IMG/VR virus record: IMGVR_UViG_3300017917_000042
Coordinates: 1 to 41,254 of that record
Origin: a virus
Length of the DNA stretch: 41,254 bases
Strand: one strand, 5' to 3'
Shown here: piece by piece, positions 30,253 through 40,646 of the stretch
How the letters are laid out: each line of letters opens with the position of its first letter
How positions within the stretch are numbered: position 1 is the first letter of the stretch
Notes under the pieces: generated by a model
What the model was told of the DNA's origin: nothing
The model's database searches: none
The model's input: only the letters and a program-made list of their open reading frames with translations
Translations under genes and position numbers: made by a program

Positions 30253-31038
30253 TTACCCTTGTACCCACGTTAACGGTTGACTGTAATCTACGTAACGCTT
30301 CAATTCTTCAATCAGTAATTCTTGTGCGGCTTTAGCTTCTGCTTTCATAGCTGTACCGTTTAGTGTTGTACCACCACCTGGGCCTGCGATAGTACCGAAT
30401 TTTTCACGGGCTTCACCTATAATACCTTTTAGTGTAGCAAAAATAAAGTCAGCAATCCAAACTCCTGCACCCGGATCTTGTAATAGTACTTCTTCAGTTC
30501 TTTGTACATCTGCCCATATAAGAACTCTTTCACCTGTGCCTTTAGGGTCACGCACAATTCTAAGTACTTTAGTTACCGGGTCAAACGTATAGATAACATA
30601 ACCACCGAACATACGTGCCGCTAACTCAACATATCCTGCATAGAAATCATATGTAGCCATACCACCTGCGTAGTTATAATTCAGTAGGTATGTATTTAAA
30701 ATTGCAGAGGAAAACGGATCAAAACTACTAGAACCGGGGCCTGTTTCTAAGCCAACTGTTCTACGGTAAATACAACGGACATTGATAAATTCTTGAGGTA
30801 ATGTATATGTATCTACATTCTTTACCACTGTCATTAGTGTATATGATTCAGCGGTTGCATTTTGAGCCCTTTGTCTATAGGTCTTTATGGCATAGTTATA
30901 TGCTGCTTCATAATGCTCAGGGTCAAGCTCTAAATCAATGATACCATCACCTAAACGATAACGCAAATTAGTGAACATAGTTTGCTTTAATTCGTCTAAG
31001 GTTAAGCCATTTGGTGTTGAAAGGATATTAATTGCCAT
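30253..31038 (-). CDS. 13: neck protein gp13
   Basis: 261 residues (T4 gp13 has 309). Features of the family: YRLGDGIIDLELDPEHYEAA, IKTYRQRAQNATAESYTLMT, YTLPQEFINVRCIYRRTVG, ARMFGGYVIYTFDPVTKVL and FATLKGIIGEAREKFGTIAG. In T4, gp13 and gp14 form the neck collar between portal and tail terminator. The gp14 homologue is encoded 2.5 kb away on the opposite strand. AGGTAA and a TAAATA box 21 nt upstream precede the ATG. Assignment rests on pattern similarity to gp13 of aquatic T4-like phages. Confidence 0.82.
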   Translation of the reverse strand: MAINILSTPNGLTLDELKQTMFTNLRYRLGDGIIDLELDPEHYEAAYNYAIKTYRQRAQNATAESYTLMTVVKNVDTYTLPQEFINVRCIYRRTVGLETGPGSSSFDPFSSAILNTYLLNYNYAGGMATYDFYAGYVELAARMFGGYVIYTFDPVTKVLRIVRDPKGTGERVLIWADVQRTEEVLLQDPGAGVWIADFIFATLKGIIGEAREKFGTIAGPGGGTTLNGTAMKAEAKAAQELLIEELKRYVDYSQPLTWVQG

Positions 31039-31059
31039 GTGTAGTTACCTATTATCTAT

Positions 31060-31065
31060 TATTTA
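31060..31065 (-). promoter_or_regulatory. late-type box TGATAAATAA of gp13
   Basis: TAAATA, 21 nt before the ATG at 31038, with AGGTAA between. It borders the structured gene-free region. Confidence 0.55.
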
Positions 31066-31068
31066 TCA

Positions 31069-31464
31069 GGAATAGTTGTTTAGATATTCTTAGGCAATGG
31101 CGAGTAGATATGATCCACTCAAACCATAATGACATTCTTGAGGCGTGTCAGGCGATGATGAATTTAACTATTACGGCGGAGGATTGTCTATGTCTCGCCA
31201 ACCACAAAGGGGTGTTACCATGTTCGCTGGTGTTATAGGACATTATTCATCAGGTAGTCCAACCAGCCCGGGCCCTCTATCGCAATTACCATGACCCGGC
31301 AACATCAACTATTAAGATATGGGAAACGTTTCTGTGCAGAGGACAGACGTTTAAGCATCTAAGGGTAGTCCCATAAATTCGTGTTGGTCTCACTTCTACC
31401 GTCACTACACGATGAGGACGGAGTTTCGCCGCATTTCTAGGTAGCGGAACCTATAAACCAATAA
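31069..31464. ncRNA. candidate large structured non-coding RNA
   Basis: This 396-nt stretch is the only gene-free gap above 300 nt in the window. It has no credible reading frame and looks richer in GC than its flanks. It holds many local stems: TGACA/TGTCA (31130-31150), GGCG..CGCC extended by two pairs (31175-31199), GGAC/GTCC (31238-31260), CCGGG/CCCGG (31268-31299), CCGC/GCGG (31429-31447). Four segments, CGTGT (31380), CCGTC (31399), ACACG (31407) and GACGG (31417), give an H-type pseudoknot. TTATAGG (31233) can pair with CCTATAA (31450). The octamer GGTAGTCC occurs twice (31253, 31364). The strand is undecided. The MazG operon could read into it on minus, while TTGCCA-N19-TATTAT (31032-31062) is a weak plus-strand promoter. 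I could not match it to tmRNA, RNase P RNA or a group I intron. Confidence 0.5.
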
Positions 31465-31683
31465 TTAATCTGTTAATACATCAAAGATCGTGCCGTACTC
31501 ATATCTAGCCCAATCTTCCATGTCAACATATGTGTTTATATTGCGTCGGTATACTGTCTTTAGCCACGTTCGTTGCCCGTGAATTTTGACAGGATACCAT
31601 GCAAACCACTTTTTCCAAGGACCTACTAATGTCTTTCTAGCAACATACTCGTAGTCTATCGGAGTTTGTGGTATAAATGTCAT
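31465..31683 (-). CDS. small conserved phage protein, unknown
   Basis: 72 residues from the ATG at 31683 (MTFIPQTPIDYEYVARKTLV), which overlaps the stop of the preceding gene as ATGA; an in-frame GTG at 31731 would overlap much more. The protein is aromatic and basic, with GPWKKWFAWYPVKIHGQRTW as a likely beta core. No recognised domain. It is the last gene of the MazG operon and is directly followed by the structured gene-free region. Confidence 0.65.
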   Translation of the reverse strand: MTFIPQTPIDYEYVARKTLVGPWKKWFAWYPVKIHGQRTWLKTVYRRNINTYVDMEDWARYEYGTIFDVLTD

Positions 31684-31946
31684 TCTTTGATTTTGAAAAC
31701 CAAGAACAAGTCTTTGAGTGGATGATTCCACGGATCTTTTACACCAAATGCGATGTGTCCAAATCGTGTATCCATGTCAATCTTATCTTTCCCTTTTACT
31801 ACAGGCTTGTCACCCTTCATAATTGAGTAAAGTTCAGTACCGTCAGGTAGTTGTTCAAACTCCTCGGGAGTGAATAACATTAGATTTTCATCCCAAGGGT
31901 GCATATCAGAGGTCCCCAGCCTTGCGATTCTCGGAATAAAACGCAT
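31680..31946 (-). CDS. small conserved phage protein, unknown
   Basis: 88 residues from the ATG at 31946 (MRFIPRIARLGTSD). GGAGG lies 8 nt upstream, which decides this start even though it gives a 41-nt overlap with the mazG frame. A later Met (MHPWDENLMLF) would reduce the overlap but has no such site. The segment LMLFTPEEFEQLPDGTELYS and the later FGVKDPWNHPL look well conserved in character. The function is unknown. Overlapping and coupled genes on both sides place it in the MazG operon. Confidence 0.65.
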   Translation of the reverse strand: MRFIPRIARLGTSDMHPWDENLMLFTPEEFEQLPDGTELYSIMKGDKPVVKGKDKIDMDTRFGHIAFGVKDPWNHPLKDLFLVFKIKE

Positions 31947-32319
31947 CAAAACTACCTCCGGGATAACGTGATTCTAATTTAGAAACGTTCTCAGCAATGA
32001 CTTCATTAGGATCATATCCAAGTGACCTGCAGGCATTAATCCAATACCAAATGATATCACCGAGTTCACGCTTCATGTGAAAACGATTTTCTTCATTGAA
32101 TGGCTTACCTTGAAAGACCATCTTCTTAACGATTTCGTTAAACTCGCCGCCTTCACTTGCTAGACCGATGCCAGCAGTCATCAATAGACTGATATTCAGA
32201 TTGGGTTCGTTGTCAAGTTCTTGTAGTCGGCGAATCATAGCCGCAGTGTCGTTACTTGCCTCGCTTGTAACTGCTTGGACAAAGTCCTGATATTTGTTTA
32301 GATCAATTTGTTGTGTCAT
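31906..32319 (-). CDS. mazG: MazG-like nucleotide pyrophosphohydrolase
   Basis: 137 residues, all-alpha. The metal-binding motifs of the MazG fold are visible: GGEFNEIVKK as the ExxE pair and KRELGDIIWYWINA as the ExxD pair, with a C-terminal NVSKLESRYPGGSFDA helix and loop. MazG-type enzymes hydrolyse (d)NTPs to monophosphates. In phages they may recycle host nucleotides or act on alarmone-type signals; the substrate here is unknown. The start overlaps the preceding stop as TAATG. The unit begins at a canonical sigma-70 promoter at 33525-33553, so this is probably an early gene. Confidence 0.85.
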   Translation of the reverse strand: MTQQIDLNKYQDFVQAVTSEASNDTAAMIRRLQELDNEPNLNISLLMTAGIGLASEGGEFNEIVKKMVFQGKPFNEENRFHMKRELGDIIWYWINACRSLGYDPNEVIAENVSKLESRYPGGSFDAFYSENRKAGDL

Positions 32320-37459: not shown

Positions 37460-38845
37460 TTATACACCGTTAATAGTTACGATTGGGTTAGGCTGTCCAC
37501 CGTATGTATTTGCTGCATAAGCTGTGTTGAATGTAGCAATAACATCAGGGTTGACGTTAGCCAATACAGCAAGACCTGTACCAGAACCACCCGCGTTTAA
37601 CGCAGTGAATGTGACACCTGTCATGTTGCTTGCTGCACCAATTGCGGTCCAGTTTGTATCACCTGAGAAGTAAATTGTATATACTGAACCAGGAGTTAAC
37701 GAACCGTCAGCAACAGTCGCTGGGAACAACTCAGAGTTGTAATCGTTAATAGAAGAAACATATGCTACTGTTGAGCTTGCATCAGTTGAACGGATTGACA
37801 TTGTGTTTGGTGTCAATGCTGTGTTAGCAACGTTAGCTGTATAAACTGCACCAGTAATACCAGTTGTTGCACCTGTTACCAAGTACTTTGTCTTACCCTT
37901 CTGACGAACGATATAACCTGCTTCTGGTAATGCTTGAATGAATGGATCACCTAGACTAGATACACCAATTGCGTTGTTTGCAGAAACTGCACCTAATACA
38001 ACACGGTTCTGAACAGCGTTAGGTGTACCAGTTGCATCAGACAAGTCTACTTCTGCGCCGGCGCGAGTTGTAGAAACAGTGAAAGCACTAGCGTTAGCAA
38101 TTGCTTTAACAAAGTATGTAGTACCTGTTACTAGACCACCTAAGTTAGCACTGAATGTAACAGGAGTATTAACTGTCAATGTCTGTGCATTACCTGATGT
38201 ACCGATGATATTACCAGTATTTTGTGTATTAGCAACTGCAACAGTTAAGTCGCCTGCAGTTGCAGTAGTTGTACCTAATAACTGTACTGGGCCTGCGCCA
38301 TCACCCCATACTGCGAATAAACGAGTACCAGTAGCAACGTTTGCAAAGTCAGTACCTAAACCAACAACAACGTTGCTAGATGTAGATGCAAAAACTGTAC
38401 CTGTACCGTTAACACCAAATGCAACGTTACATAGAACTTGCTTACCGTATATTGCTGTGTTACCACCAACTACACCGTATGTGCTAGAGTTTGTTGCAGG
38501 ATAACCCGCACCAGACACTGGGTTGTTGAAGTATGCGTCAACAACACCAACTGACAACTGAGAAGCAGTTGTACCAGTTGTTAATGTAACTGGGGTATAT
38601 GTTGGGTTTGCGCTTAATTGTGTAGCAGAAACAGTGAATGTTGTTGAGCTAACAACTTGTAAAATCCAATATGTTGTACCAGCAACTAAGTTTGTACCAG
38701 TTGTAATGCTAGGTACAAACGGCATACCTGCGATAATACCTAATGTGTTTAAGTTTTGTGAAACAGTAACAACGTTTGTTGTTGCGGTAGTGTTAGTTAC
38801 TGTCAAGACCGCTTGGGCCTTTGCGATTTTTAGAGGACGTCCCAT
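37460..38845 (-). CDS. beta-rich virion protein, MGRxLKI family
   Basis: 461 residues. The N-terminus MGRPLKIAKAQ parallels MGRALKIRKYQ of 39672-40562, and both have a central VRQKG-x-x-x-(Y/F)LV motif, so they are paralogues. Two copies of the TYYVK...FTVS module are present (about 20-92 and 205-280). There is also a YTIYFSGDTNWTAIGAASN segment of a kind I associate with phage structural proteins. No enzyme motif is seen. A head decoration or fibre role is likely. AAGGAAAA precedes the ATG, behind an 83-nt structured leader. Confidence 0.75.
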   Translation of the reverse strand: MGRPLKIAKAQAVLTVTNTTATTNVVTVSQNLNTLGIIAGMPFVPSITTGTNLVAGTTYWILQVVSSTTFTVSATQLSANPTYTPVTLTTGTTASQLSVGVVDAYFNNPVSGAGYPATNSSTYGVVGGNTAIYGKQVLCNVAFGVNGTGTVFASTSSNVVVGLGTDFANVATGTRLFAVWGDGAGPVQLLGTTTATAGDLTVAVANTQNTGNIIGTSGNAQTLTVNTPVTFSANLGGLVTGTTYFVKAIANASAFTVSTTRAGAEVDLSDATGTPNAVQNRVVLGAVSANNAIGVSSLGDPFIQALPEAGYIVRQKGKTKYLVTGATTGITGAVYTANVANTALTPNTMSIRSTDASSTVAYVSSINDYNSELFPATVADGSLTPGSVYTIYFSGDTNWTAIGAASNMTGVTFTALNAGGSGTGLAVLANVNPDVIATFNTAYAANTYGGQPNPIVTINGV

Positions 38846-38866
38846 TTGATTTTCCTTATGTTATAT

Positions 38867-38919
38867 GCGGGTTCTAGCCGCTACGCAGTGGGTACTGCAT
38901 AAACTCTCAGAATTAAGAG
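38867..38919 (-). ncRNA. three-hairpin leader RNA, copy A
   Basis: In the leader of 37460-38845, minus strand 5' to 3': P1 CTCT/AGAG (38904-38919); P2 TATGCAGT/ACTGCGTA with loop ACCC (38882-38901); P3 GCGG/CCGC with loop CTAGAAC (38867-38881). P2 and P3 are directly adjacent and could stack. The same three elements precede 39672-40562. Relative to that copy the fourth pair of P3 changes from A-U to G-C, and the P2 loop is 4 rather than 5 nt. The Shine-Dalgarno site AAGGAAAA follows 11 nt after P3. Confidence 0.7.
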
Positions 38920-39671: not shown

Positions 39672-40562
39672 TTAACACCAGTTTTCTGTACCAGCTAGAG
39701 TATATACTAAATCACCAGGCGCTGATGGATTAGGTAATGTATTACCATTGTCATTAAAGAATGTAGCTGAATATGTTACCCCTGGATTTGCGTTTGTGAA
39801 GGGTGTAGCAAAGTTAGTTGAGAACTTATTCTTCAAACGCTGTGCATAATACGTATCACCGTCATCATAAATTGCAACGCTCATTGTGTTAGGTTCTGTT
39901 GGGCTATTTAAGTCTACTAATAAACAAGTAGAAACAGGATATACCTCACCGTTTGTTGTCAACCCGGTACCGTCTCTTGAAGCTGTGAAAATATCGTATT
40001 GTCCTGCAGTAGGATCAGCACCCAATGCCGCCCAATTAGTGTTACTAACTGTGGCAATCATATATGCTTGACCAGCGGCGATAGATTCATCTTGAATAAC
40101 ATCAGTAGTTCCTGCAACTAGGAAACTTCTAGAACCTTTTTGACGAACGATAGATCCATTGCCAACTGCTGTATAATACCATGCACTGTCAGTGACATTT
40201 ACAGCAGAAGGATCAGCTAATGTCAATTCTTCATCGTCAGTTGTGCCGTCATAGATACCTAATGAAGTATATCCGCCTGCGCCATCACTTACCCATAATT
40301 GACTTGAACTACGGAAAGCGTCAGTTGTAAAGTGGGTACCTGTACCTGTTACAGTTGCGCTTCCAGTGTCGGCTGTGATAGTACCTAAACCCTTTACAAG
40401 AATAGCAGTATCACACTGAATTTGTGTGGAGTTTTCATTAACACCACCCACGATACCAGGCTGATTTCCAGTGTAGTTGTTATCAGTTGACCCGTCGTTA
40501 GGGAAGCCTTGGTCAACAACCTGCTCACCCTGATATTTTCTAATTTTTAAAGCACGTCCCAT
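39672..40562 (-). CDS. beta-rich virion protein, MGRxLKI family (paralogue)
   Basis: 296 residues beginning MGRALKIRKYQGEQVVDQGF. It shares with 37460-38845 the N-terminus, the VRQKG-x-x-x-FLV motif, a PNTMS(V/I) motif, and the YMIATVSNTNWAALGADPTA / FTASRDGTG segment. It lacks the duplicated TYYVK module, so the paralogues differ mainly by inserted modules. It ends in LVYTLAGTENWC. The function is probably structural. AAAGGAAAA precedes the ATG behind an 84-nt structured leader. Confidence 0.75.
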   Translation of the reverse strand: MGRALKIRKYQGEQVVDQGFPNDGSTDNNYTGNQPGIVGGVNENSTQIQCDTAILVKGLGTITADTGSATVTGTGTHFTTDAFRSSSQLWVSDGAGGYTSLGIYDGTTDDEELTLADPSAVNVTDSAWYYTAVGNGSIVRQKGSRSFLVAGTTDVIQDESIAAGQAYMIATVSNTNWAALGADPTAGQYDIFTASRDGTGLTTNGEVYPVSTCLLVDLNSPTEPNTMSVAIYDDGDTYYAQRLKNKFSTNFATPFTNANPGVTYSATFFNDNGNTLPNPSAPGDLVYTLAGTENWC

Positions 40563-40584
40563 TTGTTTTTCCTTTATTTTGTAT

Positions 40585-40636
40585 GCGAGTTCTAGTCGCT
40601 ACGCAGTGGGTTACTGCATAAACTCTCCGAATGAGA
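40585..40636 (-). ncRNA. three-hairpin leader RNA, copy B
   Basis: In the leader of 39672-40562, minus strand 5' to 3': P1 TCTC/GAGA with loop ATTCG (40624-40636); P2 TATGCAGT/ACTGCGTA with loop AACCC (40600-40620); P3 GCGA/TCGC with loop CTAGAAC (40585-40599). The conserved core including P2, P3 and the joining sequence GAGAGTTTATGCAGTA is nearly identical to copy A, while the sequence on either side is diverged. Confidence 0.7.
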
Positions 40637-40646
40637 ATATATTATG

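Follow-up and report, generated by a model that had tools for sequence, protein, structure and literature searches.

An apparently new class of large, pseudoknotted RNA encoded upstream of a gp13-like head-tail adaptor gene in viral contigs

Few RNAs are as large and intricate as the one described here, and the best-studied ones from phages are GOLLD and ROOL. Both occur in phages or prophages, often close to tRNA islands, and have no known function; both assemble into RNA-only cages of unknown purpose, a 14-mer for GOLLD and an 8-mer for ROOL (PMC12286853). GOLLD, often longer than 800 nt, is reported there to be bound by ribosomes in pull-downs, and ROOL is credited with a highly complex secondary structure, several pseudoknots and no known protein partner (PMC12286853).

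Here we describe another candidate for this small group, from phages that carry the RNA as an optional cassette. It was found in a 41,254-nt stretch of a virus record (the window), whose nearest cultured relatives, judged by its gp13-like protein, are mostly jumbo myoviruses, at less than 60% protein identity (about 32-41% in the rows listed). Relatives with and without the RNA have closely similar gp13 genes, which offers a natural way into function through direct comparison of gain and loss, and the structure model is detailed enough for immediate experimental testing. The RNA resembles GOLLD in being a large, pseudoknotted, non-coding phage RNA of unknown function, also present in aquatic metagenomes, but it is only about 380-490 nt long, has no Rfam match and lacks a nearby tRNA gene. 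It resembles ROOL as a phage RNA with a complex secondary structure and several pseudoknots, but again without Rfam match or nearby tRNA, and it was found in viral contigs only, not in the bacterial genome collection. HEARO, or OMEGA RNA, is similar in length and compactness of fold; unlike it, the present RNA gives no HEARO match and has no nuclease-type gene in the eight neighbour clusters scanned. The phi29 packaging RNA is a phage RNA acting in trans, as is proposed below for the present one, but it is much shorter and there is no family match.

The Rfam covariance models, GOLLD, ROOL, HEARO and group I included, gave no match in the gap that contains the RNA, at gathering or relaxed thresholds, which makes a new class likelier than GOLLD or ROOL. 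Thus the proposal of the first-pass annotation, that a known or a new class is present, appears to resolve toward the second: the RNA class is apparently new, comparable in kind to GOLLD and ROOL and in neither family. As a kind rather than a family, the large structured trans-acting phage RNAs are matched by its extensive covarying structure and its non-coding nature. ARAGORN found no tRNA gene in the window and none in 60 of the 60 loci scanned, and no tmRNA in either; tRNA-like ends and a tag frame are absent, and the sense frames contain stops. A search of the open literature, as distinct from subscription papers and supplements, returned no description of the RNA. Elsewhere in the window, Rfam recognises two copies of the freshwater-2 cis-regulatory RNA (RF02980), at 40560-40638 (minus strand, 65.8 bits) and 38843-38919 (minus strand, 60.2 bits), each adjoining the beginning of an ORF on the minus strand (39672-40562 and 37460-38845, respectively).

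The locus is a gap of 426 nt (31039-31464), longer than any other interior gap between the long ORFs that we took as genes (the next is 203 nt), as had been noticed before; the sole longer gap, at 1-619, touches the window edge, and a further stretch without a long ORF lies at 1007-1209. The impression that the gap is richer in GC than its flanks also holds: its GC content is 44.9%, compared with 38.7% and 40.9% in the left and right kilobases and 39.8% in the window, and 24 of 818 equal-sized segments are at least as GC-rich. The flanking genes on both sides lie on the minus strand. Downstream of the RNA is the gp13-like head-tail adaptor gene (30253-31038, PHROG 211, E 9.8e-24); upstream are a MazG-like pyrophosphatase gene (31906-32319) and, following it, a small ORF of 88 amino acids (31465-31731) that ends at the 5' edge of the RNA. 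Folded alone, the window sequence gives nothing beyond chance, with energy z-scores of +0.21 (plus strand) and +0.35 (minus strand) and with 53 and 62 of 100 shuffles, respectively, folding at least as well. The density of hairpins, which had been offered as evidence, is therefore no greater than expected, and we relied on comparative evidence alone.

To find relatives, we searched viral contigs with the gp13 protein, which has at least 596 relatives there, and retained 80 loci. Upstream of gp13, 16 of these 80 conserve the gap in whole or for the most part, at 78-98.6% identity; this proportion is not a population frequency, given that the 80 were selected for their similarity to the window and that many of the contigs are fragments. 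Exact-pattern scans and a profile search gave 109 matching loci, the window included, with some contigs contributing two, and 104 of them are near full length. Removal of 5 partial loci, and of 39 more whose core was duplicated or contained in another, left 65 distinct cores, 57-98% identical to the window, whose comparison establishes the homology of the loci. Two later scans brought in a few further loci, four identical copies (L268, L273, L274 and L278) among them, which stand outside the 65-row alignment.

Outside this set the searches were negative. With seven queries, blastn found no homologue among the INPHARED phages, a search that would miss very diverged copies; three short matches at E 5 were taken as chance, and a 32-base match to a Clostridioides phage (E 0.03) was rejected as a hairpin without other resemblance. 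Plasmid records also yielded no homologue by blastn. A subdomain model found no accepted homologue in seven jumbo-phage isolates, where a weak match (W06, E 0.008) overlaps protein genes on the other strand and was rejected. A 17-base word occurs at 31 places in bacterial and archaeal genomes, and we treated these as chance, since in all 31 stretches the similarity is confined to a short local match (best E 8e-4). Nor did several longer contigs of RNA-negative loci show a convincing match elsewhere in the record.

The conserved core, 379 nt in the window (31085-31463, minus strand), almost equals the 31069-31464 first proposed. To assess covariation we used a custom script with a tree-simulated null of 40 simulations: more than 20 column pairs, nearly all Watson-Crick, score above every pair of the 40 simulated nulls. 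The final structure has 80 pairs in 20 helices with four pseudoknots; across the 65 sequences 94.2% of cells are paired, and 66 of the 80 pairs have changed on both sides. Doubly changed cells number 762, compared with 63-148 when the partners are slid and 208 on average when they are shuffled, and the covariation score is 0.424, compared with 0.060-0.079 and 0.174. The slid control is somewhat biased toward the structure, which was derived from these same 65 sequences, but the difference is very large all the same.

The strand is shown by the preference for G-U over A-C: interior pairs contain 105 G-U cells at 22 positions and 17 A-C cells at 8 positions, pointing to the minus strand of the window, the strand of gp13. 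A single pair accounts for 51 of the interior G-U cells, leaving 54 G-U against 17 A-C without it, and the contrast is weaker when the restriction to interior pairs is lifted (203 against 89 for all pairs, 112 against 49 for 60 well-formed pairs). By RNAalifold the two strands have similar energies (-43.3 sense, -41.1 antisense). Among the relatives' 788 indels just 78 are multiples of three and stops occur in every sense frame, which establishes that the region is not a protein gene. A 68-amino-acid ORF on the plus strand (31032-31238), considered as a decayed protein gene, was rejected: it belongs to no family, and the relatives' indels and stops stand against it. On these comparative grounds a conserved structured RNA on the minus strand is, as a structure, near certain. 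The early suspicion of a large structured phage RNA is thus supported by exactly the homologues with strong covariation that it called for, and the match to a decayed gene that it set against itself was not found.

Its individual pairings fared less well. The named repeats and complementary words are all present in the sequence, but the majority of the pairings cited as evidence are chance. In the proposed H-type pseudoknot, the arm CCGTC/GACGG, alone of the named pairings, is conserved (31421-31417/31403-31399, 99.4% of cells paired), while CGTGT/ACACG is not conserved among the 65 relatives; the long-range complement TTATAGG/CCTATAA likewise shows no conserved pairing among them. The repeated motif GGTAGTCC is a two-copy word, which we did not count as evidence. 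An H-type pseudoknot does exist, but a different one: 31452-31449/31442-31439 with 31447-31444/31432-31429, of whose eight pairs seven have changed on both sides (87.1% and 82.1% paired).

This element, pseudoknot 2 of the model, lies near the 5' end within the span of P1, in which 31461-31456 pair with 31389-31384 (six of six pairs changed on both sides, 89.4% paired). The 3' strand of P1 is itself the loop of a small hairpin, 31393-31391/31383-31381, and this arrangement forms pseudoknot 1. That hairpin is among the weakest helices (61.9% and 83.8% paired); the others are one P9 pair that was added (76.9%) and the H-type pseudoknot near the 5' end (82-87%). Then comes the P4-P6 arm (helices 7-10), with strands 31375-31369/31324-31318, 31351-31348/31328-31325 and 31346-31343/31335-31332. 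Within it, pair 31372-31321 correlates with base 31310, which may reflect a base triple or shared descent. The P7 hairpin (31299-31293/31274-31268) is 99.8% paired, with six of seven pairs changed on both sides, and its conserved 18-nt loop contains GTAATNGCGATAGA. In pseudoknot 3 (helices 12 and 13), bases 31284-31280 of this loop pair with the 3' strand 31103-31100 plus 31098; the variable loop base and its partner at the 3' end are UA in 33 sequences and AU in 28, and a further change, CG to UA, is seen in 6.

The P8/P9 stem-loop (helices 14-16) comprises 31267-31264/31229-31226 and 31262-31258/31239-31235. Its P9 loop, 31252-31245, pairs with 31163-31156 (TGATGAAT/ATTCATCA) in pseudoknot 4, which is 98.5% paired with six of eight pairs changed on both sides; of the four pseudoknots this and pseudoknot 3 have the clearest support. 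Helices 18-20 are P11 (31217-31213/31169-31165), a CCC/GGG hairpin and P12 (31200-31196/31178-31174), whose 17-nt loop, AGACATAGACAATCCTC (31195-31179), is near-invariant. Outside the counted helices, the near-invariant stretches are the rest of the P7 loop and this 17-nt P12 loop; the helices do not explain their conservation, and it is in such loops that one would expect an active site or the contact with a partner. A conserved UCCUCC in the P12 hairpin resembles the anti-Shine-Dalgarno sequence. Toward the 3' end, direct repeats CCTCAAGAAT (31142-31133) and CCTAAGAAT (31094-31086) flank the final hairpin, and their ends vary together: GAAT is missing from the second copy in 14 sequences, and in these the first copy usually carries the change as well. 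Their longest shared word averages 5.2, compared with 3.3 when different variant rows are set against each other and 3.8 when they are set against GAAT rows. The two copies differ from each other in L084, L087 and L152.

The genomic setting shows the RNA to behave as a cassette. The ORFs closest to the RNA in the 65 loci include 52 proteins of the gp13 cluster and 48 of the MazG cluster; in seven loci (L094, L100, L147, L177, L181, L186 and L201) neither is among these closest ORFs. One contig of 277,516 bases carries two diverged copies about 220 kb apart. The RNA is absent from 64 of the 80 gp13 loci, where the previous ORF mostly ends 42-90 nt before gp13; in most RNA-positive loci the gap before gp13 is about 430-480 nt. 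In the window, the RNA and gp13 are separated by a late-promoter-like GATAAATA (31060-31067, minus strand); the late-promoter consensus is TATAAATA. In 49 of the 65 loci GATAAATA or AATAAATA, that is (G/A)ATAAATA, occurs no more than 110 nt downstream of the core. RNA-positive relatives have the RNA in the gap upstream of this same motif, and close relatives without the RNA still have both motif and gp13, so that presence and absence of the cassette are established by direct comparison of loci. A gp13 tree was built with 112 rows, of which 51 have the RNA and 61 lack it (three loci with too little upstream DNA excluded). On it the RNA requires at least 12 gains or losses, four of them forced by strongly supported branches, and L034 and L149 are placed among very similar gp13 rows without the RNA. 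This scattered distribution indicates that the RNA is accessory. At the MazG/gp13 junction, which looks like a hot spot for insertion, some loci hold one or another small ORF, some an endonuclease-like gene (GIY-YIG or NUMOD3) and some the RNA.

On the 5' side of the RNA, a late-promoter-like motif occurs in the upstream 100-nt stretches of 0 of 65 loci, and an upstream promoter scan, which performed at chance level, recognised no promoter. In at least 18 of the 65 loci, by eye, a hairpin resembling an intrinsic terminator adjoins the RNA on this side; such hairpins abut it directly in L265 and in loci such as L099, L109, L143, L162 and L173. No such hairpin follows MazG, by eye, in the loci without the RNA, and the terminator may therefore travel with the cassette. 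Read-through followed by processing is one possibility for the making of the RNA. In RNA-negative loci (L008-L018 and others), the late-promoter-like TGATAAATA upstream of gp13 is usually enclosed by an inverted repeat, for example GTTTCCTGATAAATACAATATCAGGAAAC, whose left arm is often altered in RNA-positive loci.

Taken together, the late-promoter-like motif downstream, the additional genomic contexts, the contig with two copies and the clear-cut presence or absence point to an RNA that is likely trans-acting and accessory, not a gp13 leader. We give a probability of about 0.65 to the reading that this is a non-coding RNA class that acts in trans as an accessory phage RNA. Under it, an RNA of about 380-490 nt, encoded on the gp13 strand, would fold compactly through about 20 helices and four pseudoknots and so expose two nearly invariant loops, GUAAUNGCGAUAGA in P7 and AGACAUAGACAAUCCUC in P12. 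During infection it would work in trans, folding alone or with protein, and could present these loops to a host or phage partner, serving as a scaffold or decoy. A concrete version is a direct hold on the translation machinery via the P12 hairpin: given the likeness of UCCUCC to the anti-Shine-Dalgarno sequence, contact with the ribosome or mRNA is a testable guess. Several observations count against the trans-acting reading: upstream, no promoter was recognised; terminator-like hairpins adjoin the RNA on its 5' side; the single sequence folds no better than chance; and no partner gene was found.

The same conserved loops would be catalytic if the RNA were a ribozyme, which might share ancient ancestry with group I introns or be a self-mobilising RNA element. 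Large conserved unpaired stretches, patchy presence in several genomic contexts with two copies in one contig, and paired 3' direct repeats that change together all fit this idea, and in L162, L177, L181, L186 and L201 the P12 loop takes the form GAGATATAGTC, which resembles the group I S element. However, that stretch is a hairpin loop closed by P12, its would-be P7 partner shows no covariation, and the candidate 5' strand of a group I P7 (31348-31343) pairs locally, with covariation. No Rfam intron or ribozyme model matched at E up to 10 (window and L181) or up to 1 (L147, L094, L103 and L088), and in loci with called neighbours the RNA is intergenic, with no interruption of an exon seen. 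We consequently regard a ribozyme as rather improbable and reject a group I intron, for which neither a model match nor a conserved P7 pairing was found despite the S-like loop variant.

In most loci the RNA immediately precedes gp13 and shares its strand, as reflected by the 52 gp13-cluster proteins among the neighbours, and this would suit a cis-regulatory leader, riboswitch-like or exerting translational control. But the late-promoter-like motif separates the RNA from gp13 in the window and most relatives, which makes a leader role unlikely; close relatives keep motif and gp13 without the RNA, and seven of the 65 loci have other neighbours, so this reading seems to us very improbable. The RNA might instead guide an encoded nuclease or serve as its scaffold, in the manner of OMEGA or HEARO RNA; this would agree with its size (a 343-nt HEARO is mentioned in PMC12286853) and with the homing endonucleases (GIY-YIG, NUMOD3) found nearby. 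Yet there is no HEARO match, and the eight neighbour clusters to which the domain scan was confined contain no TnpB, IscB or Cas domain; we consider such a role highly improbable. Covariation would look the same if a single strand of minus-strand DNA folded, and no promoter of the RNA's own was found, as would befit an origin, packaging or recombination site. This is the least probable reading: the G-U preference over A-C and the pseudoknot-rich folding are typical of RNA, and close relatives without the stretch indicate that it is not a required genome site.

A bolder form of the accessory trans-acting RNA, which we consider unlikely, is a mobile, ORF-less phage RNA class with a catalytic or RNA-only assembling core. 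Its cassette would move between phages and genome sites, the near-invariant loops would be an active site or a grip on the host translation machinery, and the co-varying 3' repeats would mark a processing or insertion reaction.

Two further features were noted among the loci. A palindromic element of the CACGAA-stem-loop-TGATGTG type follows the RNA in L094, L100, L186, L201 and L271, and a different short palindromic element does so in L107, L148, L155 and L157; in the loci scanned these elements match no Rfam family at gathering thresholds. By eye, the RNA itself appears mosaic in L149, L084 and L058, with domains of L149 resembling different relatives, which suggests recombination within the RNA.
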